The notes under the pieces were generated by a model. The model ran no database searches. It had not been told where the DNA came from and worked only from the letters and a program-made list of their open reading frames with translations. A stretch of 34,510 nt of DNA. It comes from Candidatus Thioglobus sp. (lineage in GTDB: Bacteria > Pseudomonadota > Gammaproteobacteria > PS1 > Pseudothioglobaceae). The translations under genes were made by a program, and so were the position numbers. The stretch covers positions 1 to 34,510 of the forward strand of contig JAOMMB010000008.1 of the NCBI GenBank assembly GCA_028352435.1, written 5' to 3'. Numbering within the stretch: the first letter of the stretch is position 1; the number at the start of each line of letters is the position of its first letter. Shown here one piece after another: positions 27,359-34,505 of this stretch.

Positions 27359-28303
27359 ATGGAAAAAACAGCATTAATTTGTGGCTCATACGCCTTTGAC
27401 TCAATCATGGTTTTTCAGGATCAATTTAAAAACCACATTTTGCCAGACAAGGTGCACATGTTAAACGTATCGTTTTTAGTGCCTACTATGCGTAAAGAGT
27501 TTGGAGGTTGTGGCGGCAATATTGCTTATAACCTTCATTTACTAGGTGCCAATTCCATTCCAATGGCAACGGTGGGCGAGGATTTCACCCCGTATATGCA
27601 GTGGATGGAAAGACACCACATGAACACCACACACATGAAAGTCATCAAAGACAGCTACACGGGTCAAGCGTTTATCACCACAGATATGGATGATAATCAA
27701 ATTACAGCTTTTCATCCAGGTGCTATGAGCAATTCTCATGAAAACAAAGTCAGCGACGTGAGTGTTGCAGATATTGGTATCGTTTCTCCAGATGGCCGTG
27801 ATGGCATGATTGAACACGCCAAACAATTTGCAGATGCTAATATCGCTTTTATTTTTGATCCAGGCCAAGGCATGCCAATGTTCTCTGGTGATGAGTTAAT
27901 TACTTTTATTGAGCAAGCAACCTATGTAGCGGTTAATGATTATGAATCGCAAATGCTGCAAGATAAAACTGGCCTTGATTTATCAGCTATTGCCGCAAAG
28001 CTAACCGCACTAATTATTACCAAAGGCGGTGAAGGTTCTGAAATTCACACACAAGGTGAGGTGATAAAAATATTACCGGCTAAAGCAGCCTCAATTCAAG
28101 ATCCAACCGGTTGTGGTGATGCCTATCGAGCAGGTTTGTTGTTCGGCATCATGAATGATTTGAGCTGGAAAGCCACAGGCCAATTAGCTGGGTTATTAGG
28201 CGCTATCAAAATTGCACACCCGGGCACACAAAACCATACCTTTACGTTGGCAGATATTGAGAAACTTTACCAAGATAATTATGACGAAGTTCTTTTGGCA
28301 TAA
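27359..28303 (+). CDS. PfkB-family sugar or nucleoside kinase
   Basis: A 314-residue ribokinase-superfamily kinase. The N-terminal signature GGCGGNIAYNLHLLGA (about residue 49 on) and the C-terminal anion-hole signature DPTGCGDAYRAGLLFG, with the catalytic Asp in CGD, are both clear. The overall pattern (GSYAFDSIMVFQDQF start, ITAFHPGAM) fits the adenosine-kinase-like group of PfkB proteins seen in beta- and gammaproteobacteria. Whether the substrate is adenosine or a sugar cannot be settled from sequence alone. A strong ribosome binding site (AGGAGA) precedes the ATG, 43 bases after ispH. Confidence 0.85.
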   Translation: MEKTALICGSYAFDSIMVFQDQFKNHILPDKVHMLNVSFLVPTMRKEFGGCGGNIAYNLHLLGANSIPMATVGEDFTPYMQWMERHHMNTTHMKVIKDSYTGQAFITTDMDDNQITAFHPGAMSNSHENKVSDVSVADIGIVSPDGRDGMIEHAKQFADANIAFIFDPGQGMPMFSGDELITFIEQATYVAVNDYESQMLQDKTGLDLSAIAAKLTALIITKGGEGSEIHTQGEVIKILPAKAASIQDPTGCGDAYRAGLLFGIMNDLSWKATGQLAGLLGAIKIAHPGTQNHTFTLADIEKLYQDNYDEVLLA

Positions 28304-28359
28304 GGATTATTAAGGTAATAAATATTTTTTAATTACATACTAAAATGATCGGTTATTAT

Positions 28360-28377
28360 TAGGCTATAATTTAACCT
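28360..28377 (+). repeat. Copy 1 of a promoter-like repeat (TAGGCTATAATTTAACCT)
   Basis: The sequence recurs 1 kb downstream at 29338-29356 with a single extra G (TAGGCTATAATTTGAACCT). It contains a perfect -10 TATAAT (28365-28370), placed about 44 bases before the ATG of the winged-helix gene. No good -35 lies 16-18 bases upstream, so an activator or other upstream contacts may be needed. Confidence 0.6.
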
Positions 28378-28394: not shown

Positions 28395-28408
28395 CCTCTG
28401 GGGAGAGG
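28395..28408 (+). promoter_or_regulatory. Small hairpin covering the ribosome binding site of the winged-helix gene
   Basis: CCTCT (28395-28399), loop GGGG and AGAGG (28404-28408) can pair and would hide the strong Shine-Dalgarno sequence GGGGAGAGG, five bases before the ATG at 28414. The stem is only five pairs, so it could be a mild control on translation or chance. Confidence 0.3.
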
Positions 28409-28413
28409 ACAAT

Positions 28414-28701
28414 ATGAAAGCACTAGAAAAATTATTTGAATTAAGACGCTCACTAGCGACATACGAACGTGAAATGGGTTTCGATAAGTTATCAGAAGTA
28501 GAAAAATCAGTTCTTGAATTTGTCATGCATTCTAAAGATGCCAACATTACAAGAATTACTAAAGATGAATATTTCTATAAATATTCACTGTCTACGATCA
28601 AAAGAGCAGTAGGTGTCTTGTTAAATAAAGAGATCATCGTTGCAACACAATCTAGCCTTGATAAGCGCTCAATGATTCTAACGTACAATCAGCAGCATTA
28701 G
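28414..28701 (+). CDS. Small winged-helix DNA-binding protein, MarR-like
   Basis: A 95-residue protein consisting of one winged-helix fold. A first helical stretch (KALEKLFELRRSLATYEREM) leads to a helix before the recognition unit (SEVEKSVLEFVMHSKD). The helix-turn-helix is about residues 45-72 (FYKYSLSTIKRAVGVLLNKE), and the wing has SLDKRSMILTYN, similar to the D-K-R wing of MarR proteins. No ligand or dimerisation domain is obvious. It has one of the best ribosome binding sites in the window and precedes three paralogous membrane genes, of which it is the likely regulator. A plasmid- or phage-type small regulator is the alternative. Confidence 0.7.
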   Translation: MKALEKLFELRRSLATYEREMGFDKLSEVEKSVLEFVMHSKDANITRITKDEYFYKYSLSTIKRAVGVLLNKEIIVATQSSLDKRSMILTYNQQH

Positions 28702-28764
28702 ATAATGATGATTAACCAACAATTTGAAATAACTTTGTCCTCAGTGTAGTAGTCACATACTATT

Positions 28765-29340
28765 ATGACTGTAAAATTTCAAAATTACCTACTGGAAAAC
28801 GCCATAGCCTTTGTGAGTGTCTTTTCCATGGCGTACATTATGATCTGGTTCGGCTCGTTTGAGCTTGAAGTGGGTTCATATGTGTATTTGCCATTAGGTG
28901 CAAAAATATTAATGTATTTGATTTTTGGTTATCGAGTATTTCCAGGTGTTATCGCCGCTTGTTTAGCTGGCGGTATTGTCTTAATGGGTTCTCGGGGCGG
29001 CAACCTCTTCATTGGCATGCTATCTGCTTGTGCGGGTGCAGTCGCTCCGATTTTGGCCATGGGCTTTATGAACCTAACTCATGTTAGTGATTTCTCTAAT
29101 CTGAGCAAGATTGATTTTAGACATGTTTTATTCTTGGTAGTTTTTACATCAGTCATAAGCGCACTGCTTAAGTTCTTTGTTTACATGCAAGATGTCACCC
29201 TTAATATTAATGCAGTAACTTTCATTACTCATTACATTAGGGGCGATGTCATTGGAGGCCTGGTGGTGGTTTACTTAGCTTTGGGTTTTGTTGCCCCAAT
29301 TATAGAGCGGTCTTACACGAAAAAAACAGCTCACTTTTAG
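28765..29340 (+). CDS. MASE1-like integral membrane protein, paralog A
   Basis: A 191-residue protein with about six transmembrane segments and no soluble domain. It shares with the next two genes the motifs YLPLGAKI (residues 41-48), IFGYRVFPG, GAVAPILA, FRHVLFLVV with His120, ALLKFF, and a final GDVIGGLVV. This order resembles the MASE1 membrane sensor domain normally found in front of GGDEF, EAL or histidine-kinase domains, but no such output domain is present. No clear ribosome binding site precedes the ATG. A substrate-binding S component of an ECF transporter is a less likely alternative on size and topology. Function unknown. Confidence 0.7.
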   Translation: MTVKFQNYLLENAIAFVSVFSMAYIMIWFGSFELEVGSYVYLPLGAKILMYLIFGYRVFPGVIAACLAGGIVLMGSRGGNLFIGMLSACAGAVAPILAMGFMNLTHVSDFSNLSKIDFRHVLFLVVFTSVISALLKFFVYMQDVTLNINAVTFITHYIRGDVIGGLVVVYLALGFVAPIIERSYTKKTAHF

Positions 29341-29356
29341 GCTATAATTTGAACCT
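29338..29356 (+). repeat. Copy 2 of the promoter-like repeat (TAGGCTATAATTTGAACCT)
   Basis: Matches 28360-28377 except for one inserted G. It begins at the stop codon of paralog A and places a perfect TATAAT (29343-29348) 30 bases before the GTG of paralog B, suggesting that B and C have their own promoter of the same type as the regulator gene. Confidence 0.6.
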
Positions 29357-29377
29357 TAATAACCAAAGGTTACTTTC

Positions 29378-29914
29378 GTGTTAATTGTTAAATATAATAT
29401 AGTCGCCTTTGTCTTAGTCATAATCTCTTCATTGCTAATAGAGTACAAGACACCTATGGACATTTCCATTGGAAGCTTACTATACCTTCCAATGGGTGCA
29501 GCTATCTTTTCTTATCTTCTATTTGGTTTTGGCGTTCTACCGGGTTTGGCTATTGCCAATACTCTAATAGGCTATTTTATCTGGGACAATTGGTTTGGCA
29601 TGGGATTGACTGGAGTTTTTGGCCATGTAGTTGTAGGATCTTTAGCGCCAATTGCTGCAATTCTAACGATGAGATATTTCAAACTATCAAAGTTTTATGA
29701 TGATGGAGATCTTAATTTTAGGCATGTAATATTTCTTGTTATTTTGACAGCATTGATTAATGCCTTATTAAAGTTTTTTATCTTTATGAACGCCCTTCCT
29801 GAGTTTCATGCCCCGGTCCAATTTATCTTAACCCATTTTGTAAGCAATACTCTAGGGGGGCTGGTCTTTATCTATGGAGTCAGTCGGCTATCAAATTTCT
29901 TAGTTAAGCGATAA
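29378..29914 (+). CDS. MASE1-like integral membrane protein, paralog B
   Basis: A 178-residue membrane protein with about six transmembrane segments. It aligns over its whole length with A and C: SIGSLLYLPMGAAI (residues 30-43), LFGFGVLPGL, GSLAPIAAILTMRYFKLSKF, FRHVIFLVI with His116, INALLKFF and VSNTLGGLVFIYG. The GTG start is chosen because AAAGG lies nine bases upstream and no ATG is near. In the last motif the Asp found in A and C (GDxxGG) is Asn (SNTLGG). It is nine bases from C and looks more like C than A. No output domain; function unknown. Confidence 0.7.
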   Translation: MLIVKYNIVAFVLVIISSLLIEYKTPMDISIGSLLYLPMGAAIFSYLLFGFGVLPGLAIANTLIGYFIWDNWFGMGLTGVFGHVVVGSLAPIAAILTMRYFKLSKFYDDGDLNFRHVIFLVILTALINALLKFFIFMNALPEFHAPVQFILTHFVSNTLGGLVFIYGVSRLSNFLVKR

Positions 29915-29923
29915 AATTTATCT

Positions 29924-30478
29924 ATGTTTACAATTAATATCATTATCGCTCTGGTTATTTTTTTAACGTCAGCCTTGATGTCATGGACAAATGGTATTGA
30001 CATCACACTTGGAAATTATTTATGGCTACCAATGGGTGCAAAGATATTAGCATTCTTACTATTTGGGCTTTGGGCATTACCGGGTGTTTTACTAGGGTCA
30101 CTGATGAGTGGGTACATTCTGTATAATTTTTTGAATGTTGATCCTATCTATGGGCCTCTAGGCTCTTTGATCGGAACTTTTGCACCAATGAGTGCGATAC
30201 TAATAATGCGGTATTTCAACTTATCCACGTTCTTTGATGGCGATAAAAAATTGGAATTTAGTCACGTTATCTTTTTAATTGTATTGTCATCAATAATTAA
30301 TACATTACTTAAGCTGTTTCTTTATTTTGGTAGAGTAAGTGGAGTTGATCAGCAGCAGATAGATAGTTCTGAATTTATACTCAGTTACTTAACAGGTGAC
30401 ATATTAGGCGGTATTGTATTTATCCTGCTTACAATTAAGATTTTTATGCCACTTTTAATACGATTTAAGCTAATTTAG
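29924..30478 (+). CDS. MASE1-like integral membrane protein, paralog C
   Basis: A 184-residue membrane protein with about six transmembrane segments, the third tandem paralog. Shared motifs are LGNYLWLPMGAKI (residues 29-41), LFGLWALPGV, GTFAPMSAILIMRYFNLSTF, FSHVIFLIV with His114, INTLLKLF and LTGDILGGIVFI. It begins nine bases after B and ends with its last nine bases overlapping the end of mfd on the other strand. As with A and B, it has no signalling domain and its role is unknown. Confidence 0.7.
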   Translation: MFTINIIIALVIFLTSALMSWTNGIDITLGNYLWLPMGAKILAFLLFGLWALPGVLLGSLMSGYILYNFLNVDPIYGPLGSLIGTFAPMSAILIMRYFNLSTFFDGDKKLEFSHVIFLIVLSSIINTLLKLFLYFGRVSGVDQQQIDSSEFILSYLTGDILGGIVFILLTIKIFMPLLIRFKLI

Positions 30479-33400
30479 CTTTTTTAGCAAATTTTCTACT
30501 AACTCAATGCGTCTGATGTCTTCAGGCATCGATTCTTTAACAATTAACTGGTTTTGACCCTTTAATTGATAGTTTTTAGGCTGTTTTTGGATTAATTGAA
30601 TGATTTTTATCGGTTCAATGGTGTTTTTACTGCCAAAAGTGATGATAGCTTTGTCTTCATAGAGGTTAATTTCATCAATTCCTATTTTTTCGCAAAAAAG
30701 TTTAAGGCGTGTATTGGCAAATAAGTGCTTAGTAGAATCTGGCAACAAACCAAAACGATCAATCATCTCAATTTGCAATTCTTTAAGCTCGTTGTTACTC
30801 TTACAACTGGCAATGCGCTTGTACAAAACTAAGCGCTCGTGCACATCCTCTAAATAACTCTGAGGAATAATTGATGGCAGGCCGCAGTCTATTTGAATCT
30901 CATGATTAATCGGATCGTCTAGATTAAGTTTTCGTCCAGCACGCATGGCGTCAATCGTGCGCTTAAGTAAATCATGGTATAGGTTAAAACCAATTTCACT
31001 AATTTTTCCTGACTGATTATCACCCAGTAAATCACCTGCACCACGAATTTCAAGATCATGATTAGCCAGCATAAATCCAGCGCCCAGCTCTTCTAAAGAT
31101 TCGATGGCATCTAGGCGTTTTTTGGCATCCCTAGATAAAGACTGATGTGATTTAATCACTAAATAGGCATAAGCTCGGTGATGAGACCTGCCAACACGAC
31201 CACGCAATTGATGTAGCTGAGCGAGGCCAAAATTTTGAGCATTATTAATAATAATGGTATTGGCATTTGGAATATCAATACCCGTTTCAATAATGGTAGT
31301 ACACACCAAAATTTGAAAGCGTGCATGGTAGAAATCACCCATGATGTGCTCAAGCTCTCGCGTTGGCATCTGGCCATGGGCAACGCGAACATGAACATTA
31401 GGCATAAGCTCTGTTAAGCTTTGCGCCATATTGTCAATTGAGTCAATGTCATTATGTAAGACAAAAATCTGGCCACCACGATGCAGTTCTCGCGTGATCG
31501 CTTCTGTGATATTATCATCACTCCATTCTTGTACAAAAGTTTGAATCGCACTTCGCTTTGCAGGCGGCGTGGCGATAATTGACAACTCTCTGAGTGAGCC
31601 CAGCGCCATATTTAAAGTACGTGGTATTGGCGTGGCAGTCATGGTGAGGATGTCACTTTGCCCACGTAATTTTTTTAAGGCTTCTTTTTGTTTCACGCCA
31701 AAACGATGCTCTTCATCGATAATGACTAACCCAAGGTTTTTATATTGAACACTGCCTTGGATAATTTTATGAGTACCAATAACGATATCAATTTGACCAA
31801 TGCTGAGCTTTTCAACAATAATTTTTTGTTCTTTAGCTGTTTGGAAGCGAGATAATGCAGCAATTTCTACAGGATGATGAATAAACCGATCGACAAAAGA
31901 CTGATGATGCTGCTTAGCTAGTAGTGTGGTTGGCACTAAAATAGCGACTTGTTTACCTGCTTCAACCGCCAAAAATGCAGCGCGCATAGCGATTTCAGTT
32001 TTTCCAAAACCAACATCACCACAAACTAGACGATCCATTGGCTTATTAGAGCGCATATCGGCCAAGACTTCGCCCATGGTCTTTAGCTGATCAGGTGTTT
32101 CTTCAAAAGCAAAGTGAGATACAAATGCTGAATAGGCATCGTTAGGCTCTGGAAAAGCAAAGCCAGTTTGGGATTCACGTTTGGCATAAATCTCTAATAA
32201 TTCAGCGGCTACGTCATGCAAAGCTTCACCCGCTTTTTGTTTGGCCTTACTCCATTGTGGCGTGCCTAATTTGTGCAAAGGTGCATTTTCAGCTAAGGCA
32301 CCAGAATAACGCGAAATAAGATTAAGCGACGTCATTGGCACCATCAGTTTGGCGCCACCTGCATATTCTAATTGTAAAAAATCCTGAGATAATCCGTCGT
32401 AAGTTTGAGTCTTTAAGCCTAAGTATCGTCCGACGCCATAATTTTCATGAACAATAGGATCGCCTTTTTTAATCTCTACTAAGCTTTTAATAGCCTCATC
32501 AAAATCTTTATGCTTAGCTCTTCGTCTACGCTGCTGTTGAACGACTTCTTGGCCAAATAAATTGTCTTCAGTGATTACCGCAATATCAAGACCCAATAAG
32601 CCCTGAGATAATTCCTGATTGGTGATATGTAACAGATGATCACTTGATAAGAAGTGTTGCCAATCTTTTATATTTTGCGCCTCAAGATCGTGGTTTTTTA
32701 GCAATTCATCTAGGACACTTTGCCTACCTTGAGATTCACAGACGATGAGTATTTTTTTCTGAAAACGCTTTGCAAAACTTGATAGCTTCGATAATGGATT
32801 TTTTGCCTGTGGATCAATACGCAATGGCGGCAATAATTTTGACGAGAAATTCAAATGTCCAGGCTTCTGTTCTAGTTTTGAAGGACCGATAACAAGTTGT
32901 GGCTGTTGCTTAATCGCAGAAAACAACACTTCTTTACTTAAAAATACACGATTAACTGCTAATGGTGGTCGATCCAAGTCTTGTTTGGCGTGGTCAAATC
33001 GAGATTGGATATTAACAAAAGTCTTGTCTACTAAAGTTGAAAATCCGGCAAAAGTTGCAATGGTTAATGTCTTGGGTAGGTAATCAAACAGCGTGTTGGT
33101 CGAATTAAAAAACAGCGGCAAGTAAAATTCAATACCACCAGGTAGTCGACCTTCGCTTATTTCATGATAAATAAAACTCTGATCACCAAATACTTGTGTG
33201 TAATTATCTTTAAATAAATTAATACTTGGCTGATCAGTGGCAAATTCTCGCGCCGGTAGCAGTGCGATCTCATCTACTTGAATCTCACTTCGTTGAGTCG
33301 AAGTGTCAAAGCTGCGAATGGTTTCTATTTCCTGGTCAAATAAATCGATTCGATACGGCTTGTTGGCACCCATTGGATATAGGTCAATTAAGGAGCCGCG

Positions 33401-33898
33401 AATATTAAACTCACCATGTTCCATAACGGTAGTCACACGGTTGTATCCAATTTTTAAAAGTTTTTCACTTAATAAGGCAGGATTTATATCGTTGCCGATT
33501 TTAAGATCAAAGCTGAATTTTTCGCTAAATTCAATAGGACACAAGTAGGAAAACAAGGTTTCCAATGTGGTGACAACAATCCCTTTTTTGAGCTGTTTAA
33601 GTTTAGACAACGTACTAAGACGATTTGAAGTAATATCTGGATGCGGTGAAAACTGATCATATGGCAGCACTTCCCAGTTATCAAACTTTAGAATATCTAG
33701 TGTGTCGTTGTAAAAATTTAGAGATTTATAAAGTATATCTAGATGGGCAATATCATTTGCAATAAGCAGGATTACTTGAGATTGCTGCTGAGCATATTCG
33801 ACTAGAGCAAGTGCATCTGCACTTCCATACAAAGAGCCCCAATAGGTTTTTTGACCCGGATTTGAAAGGGGCGTCTTCTCAGGATATAAGTAGGGCAT
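30470..33898 (-). CDS. mfd: Transcription-repair coupling factor Mfd
   Basis: ATP-driven DNA translocase that removes stalled RNA polymerase at lesions and recruits UvrA. It has 1142 residues from the ATG at 33898; a TTG-led frame from 33928 would overlap maf and is rejected. The UvrB-like N-terminal part begins MPYLYPEKTPL. The RNA polymerase-binding domain (about 460-540) has GDPIVHENYGVGRYLGL. The RecG-like motor has Walker A GDVGFGKTEIAMRAAF, the DEEH box in IIDEEHRFGVKQKE, TATPIPRTLNMAL and QLRGRVGRSHHRAYAYL. The C-terminal UvrA-masking domain follows. It lies four bases after maf and is co-transcribed with it. Confidence 0.97.
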   Translation of the reverse strand: MPYLYPEKTPLSNPGQKTYWGSLYGSADALALVEYAQQQSQVILLIANDIAHLDILYKSLNFYNDTLDILKFDNWEVLPYDQFSPHPDITSNRLSTLSKLKQLKKGIVVTTLETLFSYLCPIEFSEKFSFDLKIGNDINPALLSEKLLKIGYNRVTTVMEHGEFNIRGSLIDLYPMGANKPYRIDLFDQEIETIRSFDTSTQRSEIQVDEIALLPAREFATDQPSINLFKDNYTQVFGDQSFIYHEISEGRLPGGIEFYLPLFFNSTNTLFDYLPKTLTIATFAGFSTLVDKTFVNIQSRFDHAKQDLDRPPLAVNRVFLSKEVLFSAIKQQPQLVIGPSKLEQKPGHLNFSSKLLPPLRIDPQAKNPLSKLSSFAKRFQKKILIVCESQGRQSVLDELLKNHDLEAQNIKDWQHFLSSDHLLHITNQELSQGLLGLDIAVITEDNLFGQEVVQQQRRRRAKHKDFDEAIKSLVEIKKGDPIVHENYGVGRYLGLKTQTYDGLSQDFLQLEYAGGAKLMVPMTSLNLISRYSGALAENAPLHKLGTPQWSKAKQKAGEALHDVAAELLEIYAKRESQTGFAFPEPNDAYSAFVSHFAFEETPDQLKTMGEVLADMRSNKPMDRLVCGDVGFGKTEIAMRAAFLAVEAGKQVAILVPTTLLAKQHHQSFVDRFIHHPVEIAALSRFQTAKEQKIIVEKLSIGQIDIVIGTHKIIQGSVQYKNLGLVIIDEEHRFGVKQKEALKKLRGQSDILTMTATPIPRTLNMALGSLRELSIIATPPAKRSAIQTFVQEWSDDNITEAITRELHRGGQIFVLHNDIDSIDNMAQSLTELMPNVHVRVAHGQMPTRELEHIMGDFYHARFQILVCTTIIETGIDIPNANTIIINNAQNFGLAQLHQLRGRVGRSHHRAYAYLVIKSHQSLSRDAKKRLDAIESLEELGAGFMLANHDLEIRGAGDLLGDNQSGKISEIGFNLYHDLLKRTIDAMRAGRKLNLDDPINHEIQIDCGLPSIIPQSYLEDVHERLVLYKRIASCKSNNELKELQIEMIDRFGLLPDSTKHLFANTRLKLFCEKIGIDEINLYEDKAIITFGSKNTIEPIKIIQLIQKQPKNYQLKGQNQLIVKESMPEDIRRIELVENLLKKLN

Positions 33899-33902
33899 GG
33901 TT

Positions 33903-34505
33903 TTAGAGTTGTGCGCTAAGGATATCAATTCCTTCGTTTTCTAGTAATTTGATTAGCTGAATTAAAGGCAGACCAATTAATGTATTAGGATCCCTACCTT
34001 CTAGGCTAGTGAATAAGCTGATTCCCAATCCTTCTGATTTGAAACTGCCAGCACAATTGTAAGGTTGTTCTTTTTTCAGGTAATTATCAATTTGTTCAGG
34101 CTTAAGAGCTCTAAATACTACTTTATAATTTTCGACAATTGTTTGAATATTGCCGCTATTTGTATTTAAAAGACATAAACTTGTAACAAAAGTGACTACA
34201 TTTCCAGAACAAGCACTAAGCTGTTTGATAGCATTTTCGTGAGTGTGAGGCTTACCTAATACAACGTCTTGCGCGCCTAAACCATCTTGTAATGTAGCCA
34301 CTTGGTCTGAGGCGATAATTAATCCATGTTTAGATTTAGCGACTTCTCGAGCTTTATCTTGGGCCAATCTATAAACGAGTTGCTCTGGTGATTCACCTGG
34401 TTTTCTTGATTCATCAATATCAGGAGACTGCACTGAAAACTCAAGCCCAAGTTTGTTTAATAAGGTCTGACGAAAGGGAGAAGATGAAGCGAGAATTAAT
34501 GCCAC
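33903..34505 (-). CDS. Maf-family nucleotide pyrophosphatase, YceF type
   Basis: House-cleaning enzyme that hydrolyses modified nucleoside triphosphates; the E. coli YceF branch acts on 7-methyl-GTP. It has 200 residues from a GTG at 34505. The family motifs are ILASSSPFRQTLLNKLGL, SDQVATL, a long YceF-like run around NCAGSFKSEGLGISLF, and EGRDPNTLIGLPL. Only five bases lie upstream of the GTG before the window ends, so an earlier start cannot be excluded, but the homology begins at this point. It leads mfd. The usual YceF neighbours (yceD-rpmF-plsX) would lie beyond the window, if they are kept. Confidence 0.9.
   Translation of the reverse strand: MALILASSSPFRQTLLNKLGLEFSVQSPDIDESRKPGESPEQLVYRLAQDKAREVAKSKHGLIIASDQVATLQDGLGAQDVVLGKPHTHENAIKQLSACSGNVVTFVTSLCLLNTNSGNIQTIVENYKVVFRALKPEQIDNYLKKEQPYNCAGSFKSEGLGISLFTSLEGRDPNTLIGLPLIQLIKLLENEGIDILSAQL

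Follow-up and report, generated by a model that had tools for sequence, protein, structure and literature searches.

MASE1 (PF05231) is a sensory family of membrane domains, and in Bacillus the membrane protein SdpI sequesters a winged-helix repressor, SdpR. As described in the literature, MASE1 is a domain of about 300 residues with 8-10 transmembrane segments, and in E. coli the soluble partner protein RdcA docks at DgcE (PMC6510439). In Bacillus subtilis, sdpRI encodes a small repressor together with an integral membrane protein (PMC6818787). S-components of ECF transporters, 5TMR receptors and MreD have a common fold; the publication connecting S-components to receptors makes no mention of MASE1 (PMC11109136).

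The block studied here lies in a window of 34,510 nucleotides, i.e. the whole stretch of DNA that was analysed, from Candidatus Thioglobus sp. (contig JAOMMB010000008.1). It comprises a gene for a small winged-helix protein and three genes, M1, M2 and M3, for membrane proteins that we term half-MASE1. Gene content and gene order in a wide range of relatives provide good support for the view that we are dealing with a single copy of a conserved, previously undescribed two-part module consisting of a winged-helix and a half-MASE1 component. Novelty was judged against the open-access literature, Pfam and NCBIfam; open-access literature searches for stand-alone MASE1, for MASE1 with MarR, for SUP05 with MASE1 and for MASE1 with S-component yielded nothing relevant.

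Gene arrangement at the locus

The winged-helix gene (28414-28701) encodes 95 amino acids and is followed on the same plus strand by M1 (28765-29340, 191 aa), M2 (29378-29914, 178 aa, GTG start) and M3 (29924-30478, 184 aa). All four open reading frames are exactly those listed in the first-pass annotation of this DNA, including the lengths of 191, 178 and 184 residues for the membrane proteins. The 3' end of M3 overlaps by 9 bp with the convergently transcribed mfd gene on the minus strand (30470-33928). A Shine-Dalgarno-like GGGGAGAGG can be read directly from the sequence in front of the winged-helix gene (28400-28408, plus strand), and further upstream resides a -10-like TATAAT (28365-28370, plus strand) that does not vary among seven upstream regions aligned from relatives. 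The 14-mer TTAGGCTATAATTT around this element (28359-28372, plus strand) recurs as an exact copy upstream of M2 (29337-29350, plus strand), a recurrence that is not significant taken alone; relatives also have a TATAAT-like element before the M2 paralog. Both elements, that before the winged-helix gene and that before M2, may be seen as putative promoters. A convincing shared operator palindrome was found neither in divergent intergenic regions nor upstream of the winged-helix gene, and TATAAT was the only conserved element.

The module is preceded by a gene for a PfkB-type kinase (27359-28303). The kinases fall into differing sequence clusters across genera (that of the window as opposed to cluster c12 in loci L053-L065) while the remaining locus is unchanged, and the kinase gene has likely been replaced in place between genera.

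Relationship of M1, M2 and M3 to MASE1

The three membrane proteins are pairwise 34-35% identical end to end (35% for M2 and M1) and share 38 invariant columns. These include LP-x-GA, FG...PG, AP, F-x-HV-x-FL with its conserved histidine at position 120, 116 and 114 of M1, M2 and M3, respectively, LLK-x-F and GG-x-V, and thus all motifs on which the initial proposal of three paralogs aligning over their entire length had been built. In the Pfam search, M1 matched PF05231 with 33.3 bits (cut-off 29.8, E 3.7e-8) and M3 with 22.2 bits, i.e. below the gathering cut-off (E 8.7e-5), while M2 alone gave no MASE1 match; nothing above cut-off was returned by NCBIfam. The alignments of M1 and M3 are confined to the first 175-178 of 299 model positions (4-178 for M1). 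PF05231 is also matched by 31 of 52 stand-alone relatives at E <= 0.01, and a profile-profile comparison of these 52 with 24 MASE1 domains taken from multi-domain proteins of other genomes gave E 9.5e-10 over the N-terminal half, an agreement that is best explained by homology. The C-terminal half of MASE1 gave no match to the half-MASE1 proteins in hhalign. Judged from these alignments, M1, M2 and M3 represent the N-terminal half of MASE1 only, and the homology is real. The earlier suggestion of a MASE1-like pattern is therefore borne out as far as relatedness is concerned, but it has to be narrowed from the whole domain to one half, about 165 residues as compared to 280-300 for the MASE1 domain.

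The half-MASE1 proteins have the W/L-P-x-G...G...PG and final G-D-x-x-G signatures in common with the N-terminal half of MASE1 from DgcE/YegE and UhpB-type kinases and differ by the lack of the C-terminal half, the lack of an output domain and their position in a separate clade. In a sample of 143 genomes of the class, all 36 MASE1 matches outside the host reside in open frames of 481-1416 aa, those of the host in frames of 187-195 aa. An output domain is present neither in the window nor in the relatives of M1, M2 and M3, in agreement with their first description as stand-alone proteins. In a maximum-likelihood tree with long branches and midpoint rooting, stand-alone (86 rows) and multi-domain sequences (24 rows) are split at a branch with 100/99 support. 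We also considered that paralogs might act as two half-proteins replacing both MASE1 halves. This idea was rejected because the paralogs match the N-terminal half only and the C-terminal half of MASE1 gave no sign of relatedness to the paralogs or to its own N-terminal half.

Predicted fold and topology

The AlphaFold model of M3 (pLDDT 90.6) features five helices, two of which are 33-34 residues long. Its nearest folds in the PDB are ECF S-components with TM values of 0.54-0.59, RibU (3p5n) being the first (E 0.036, probability 1.00, TM 0.54/0.57). There was no structural match in the PDB at E <= 0.001, and no solved structure related by sequence to the membrane proteins was found. The predicted half-MASE1 fold is thus suggestive of an S-component-like architecture. 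In two families, the outer loops are net negative and of variable length and the inner loops are net positive, pointing at a topology with both termini inside; six membrane segments would be in place. The conserved His114 of M3 begins a helix directly after a positive inner loop.

The first-pass annotation had also proposed comparison with ECF S-components. The predicted fold is in line with this idea, but participation in an ECF transporter is not: EcfT (CbiQ family) was found in none of 60 Thioglobaceae genomes (search controls were detected in 10 of 14), and AXXXA, the EcfT docking motif of helix 1, occurs at chance frequency in the half-MASE1 proteins (7/52 with 6.6 expected by shuffling, 0/34, and 8/23 with 6.1 expected). 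We have therefore rejected an ECF transporter. The same situation with respect to AXXXA has been reported for S-fold receptors (PMC11109136). Set beside S-components and S-fold receptors such as the 5TMR-LYT kinases and MreD, the half-MASE1 proteins have a predicted fold that comes closest to RibU among solved structures, whereas a sequence match to solved structures, EcfT in Thioglobaceae and an enrichment of AXXXA are all lacking.

The winged-helix protein

The 95-aa protein was modelled by AlphaFold (pLDDT 91.9) as five helices followed by a two-strand wing, and the model ends with a wing strand at residues 87-91. Foldseek returned MexR, MarR and SlyA as the best structural matches, with less than half of the approximately 140-aa targets covered. 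While the protein itself stays below the Pfam cut-off, its relatives match MarR and TrmB models, and S58, S60, R64, D83 and R85 are invariant in a profile of 29 relatives. The winged-helix core of MarR, SlyA and SarA with recognition helix and D-[KR]-R wing is thus present, whereas the C-terminal helices that form the dimer interface and ligand pocket in MarR proteins are missing in the model. We predict a small winged-helix DNA-binding protein with a MarR/SarA-type fold devoid of C-terminal helices. As these helices complete the dimer and the ligand pocket in MarR, the signal for the regulator should come from elsewhere.

Occurrence of the gene pair in Thioglobaceae

The membrane family is present in 44 of 145 sampled relatives, all but one of which are Thioglobaceae, and as a rule the locus has the PfkB-type kinase gene on one side and mfd on the other. 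A search with the winged-helix profile led to 40 named loci, all SUP05/Thioglobus-like where named, 36 of which extend for at least 500 bp downstream. A half-MASE1 match follows the winged-helix gene in 35 of these 36 (degenerate in one of the 35), L110 being the sole exception. The cluster is therefore conserved in relatives, so that the first interpretation withstands the refutation by lacking conservation that it had itself named, and the winged-helix linkage, originally no more than suggested, proved to be near-invariant in Thioglobaceae and to extend to further families.

Some Thioglobaceae feature deviating arrangements. An intact winged-helix gene precedes a degenerate half-MASE1 gene in the symbiont of Bathymodiolus heckerae (L079:85-1100; also L070), and copies are entirely absent from several other genera of the family. 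Two genomes (L041 and L049) contain, in an unrelated place, a second block of a winged-helix gene and two half-MASE1 genes, and this block belongs to a divergent branch of the family. In three genomes (G002, G004 and G010; loci L034, L036 and L047), a lone half-MASE1 gene that is not accompanied by a winged-helix gene adjoins a TtrSR-like two-component system, made up of a Phosphonate-bd/HATPase sensor kinase, whose periplasmic binding domain is of the phosphonate type, and a response regulator of the LuxR type. On the basis of gene neighbourhood, half-MASE1, kinase and response regulator are candidates for a three-part sensing unit, and the three lone copies imply that half-MASE1 may serve other partners too. 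A separate partner protein of the GGDEF type was likewise considered. GGDEF domains were found in none of 60 Thioglobaceae genomes, and such a partner, one form that the separate signalling protein of the initial interpretation could have taken, was rejected for this family.

Occurrence beyond Thioglobaceae

Searches with the membrane profile in two other families with small genomes (0.7-1.5 Mb), perhaps SAR86-like, revealed half-MASE1 in 10 of 21 and 43 of 81 genomes. A MarR-like winged-helix gene adjoins it in 35 of 36 loci read, mostly directly upstream at a distance of 0-33 bp. The phylum-wide search added another proteobacterial class and a Burkholderiales-like family, where half-MASE1 overlaps by 4 bp with an upstream winged-helix gene; in the former, all five winged-helix/half-MASE1 pairs have this 4-bp overlap, while in the latter a winged-helix neighbour exists at seven of 15 half-MASE1 places and is lacking at eight. 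In the six regions read from Burkholderiales plasmids, a winged-helix gene always resides beside half-MASE1, transcribed divergently in five cases and following on the same strand in one. The carriers are Polaromonas, Comamonas, Caballeronia, Paraburkholderia and Cupriavidus, including Cupriavidus metallidurans. These plasmid copies are located near insertion sequences, and where their genes carry an annotation, it reads hypothetical protein and winged-helix protein. The Burkholderiales regulators are longer (115-140 aa). By profile comparison, the membrane proteins are homologous across the lineages (E 1.3e-29 and 3.9e-17) and so are the winged-helix proteins (E 7.4e-15 and, in the set furthest removed, 1.1e-5).

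Taken together, no fewer than five bacterial families have the two genes side by side, in both orientations and, in the four families beyond Thioglobaceae, in unrelated contexts. As the two genes stay paired even when their orientation changes, the pairing appears to be functional rather than a matter of inherited order. A Burkholderiales-like genome (G955; L204, L210 and L212-L214) contains five scattered stand-alone half-MASE1 genes, one of them convergent with a response-regulator gene; a winged-helix neighbour was detected at none of the five.

Possible function and alternative explanations

Which role could a half-MASE1 protein play next to a DNA-binding protein? The reading we favour, and to which we assign about an even chance, is that half-MASE1 senses a signal and controls DNA binding of the separate winged-helix regulator, the two forming a split transmembrane switch. 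We place the sensor in the membrane and the output in the winged-helix protein because MASE1 is sensory and the MASE1 domain of DgcE binds a soluble partner, because the regulator is too short for a MarR ligand pocket, and because the pairing survives changes of orientation and Thioglobaceae are devoid of GGDEF output. The variable outer face of half-MASE1 would bind a small extracellular or membrane-soluble signal, and its positively charged, conserved cytoplasmic face, made up of the FGxxxxPG turn together with the loop L-S-x-F...F-x-H that precedes predicted helix four, would dock or release the winged-helix protein. Docking and release would then control binding of the regulator at the promoter of its own operon and perhaps elsewhere, and it is conceivable that a single constant regulator receives differing signals or affinities from the diverged paralogs M1, M2 and M3. 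Physical contact, ligand sensing and autoregulation of the pair are what we infer from this arrangement. The module would be a one-component system split into two polypeptides that works like SdpI-SdpR of Bacillus. The proposed logic is the same as in B. subtilis, a small repressor encoded together with an integral membrane protein (PMC6818787), whereas the membrane family is a different one, a linked toxin is absent and no relation between the proteins is claimed. Several observations count against the switch: half-MASE1 occurs apart from a winged-helix gene in the three Thioglobaceae copies and at the eight places in the Burkholderiales-like family, no convincing shared operator palindrome emerged, the S-component match is under the strict threshold, and the longer Burkholderiales regulators might sense a ligand themselves.

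The main rival holds that half-MASE1 is a solitary S-component-like transporter for a vitamin, cofactor or other small molecule under the control of an adjacent MarR-type repressor, with paralogs differing in substrate. MarR-family regulators often adjoin transporter genes, so that a local repressor of this kind would give identical linkage; the divergent plasmid pairs indeed look like repressor-target pairs and the predicted fold resembles RibU and other S-components. On the other hand, the sequence family is that of the sensory MASE1, the 95-aa regulator shows no visible ligand domain, and this explanation loses further weight because EcfT is missing and AXXXA is at chance level. We consider it unlikely, yet it remains a serious competitor because solitary transport by S-components is known, BioY and BtuM functioning without an ECF module (PMC11109136).

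Quite improbable in our view is a role of half-MASE1 as a detachable input subunit of separate signalling proteins, e.g. TtrSR-like ones, with the winged-helix gene only setting dosage. Multi-domain MASE1 proteins do feed kinases and cyclases, and the three lone copies next to a TtrSR-like kinase and response regulator would fit, but the winged-helix protein is the only partner of most copies, the window contains no linked kinase of this type and the 60 Thioglobaceae genomes searched are free of GGDEF. A pair serving defence, immunity or a toxin-antitoxin-like function, with an SdpI-like immunity membrane protein and an autorepressor, would share the two-gene layout with sdpRI (PMC6818787), and tandem diverging paralogs as well as plasmid copies near insertion sequences could be accommodated; we nevertheless regard it as very unlikely, given that no toxin gene is linked, that MASE1 is not an immunity family and that in Thioglobaceae the same housekeeping genes usually flank the locus. 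With neighbours that are mostly identical, linkage in Thioglobaceae, taken alone, could reflect descent. Ordinary inherited gene order in the absence of functional coupling is, however, largely refuted by the recurrence of the same pair, in either orientation and within unrelated contexts, in four further families, and by the second place it occupies within the two Thioglobaceae genomes L041 and L049.

Extending the split transmembrane switch beyond the present locus, we tentatively propose, at somewhat less than an even chance, that split transmembrane modules for gene control form a class extending across the phylum: a stand-alone receptor with S-component fold, half-MASE1, would act directly on a minimal winged-helix protein and paralog arrays would provide several inputs to one regulator. 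Half-MASE1 may also be the ancestral core that later expanded into the MASE1 input domains found in cyclases and kinases. With a detached membrane half of MASE1 of fewer than 200 residues and a 95-residue DNA-binding partner, two small genes plus a reporter suffice to put sensing and relay by MASE1 to the test. The module sits in small-genome relatives of the abundant marine SUP05/Thioglobus bacteria, and plasmids of Burkholderiales that can be cultured, among them Cupriavidus metallidurans and Caballeronia, carry it as well.

Paralog age, copy number and selection

In a maximum-likelihood tree, M1, M2 and M3 each belong to a clade of their own that also comprises orthologs from other genomes, and the array is thus composed of old paralogs with gain and loss rather than the product of a recent triplication. 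Three copies are indeed present here, as noted at the outset, but the term triplication understates the case: the paralog classes are ancient, and copy numbers range from one to five per genome with a single copy in many relatives. The host assembly is 67% complete and further half-MASE1 copies may be missing from it. The winged-helix gene has dN/dS values of 0.044-0.047, as compared to 0.14-0.20 in M1, 0.17-0.27 in M2 and 0.08-0.37 in M3, the upper value for M3 stemming from a very close pair; by this measure, all four genes are under purifying selection. The regulator also duplicates in some genomes, as evident from loci L043, L050 and L066, where two different winged-helix paralogs are arranged in tandem before the half-MASE1 genes.
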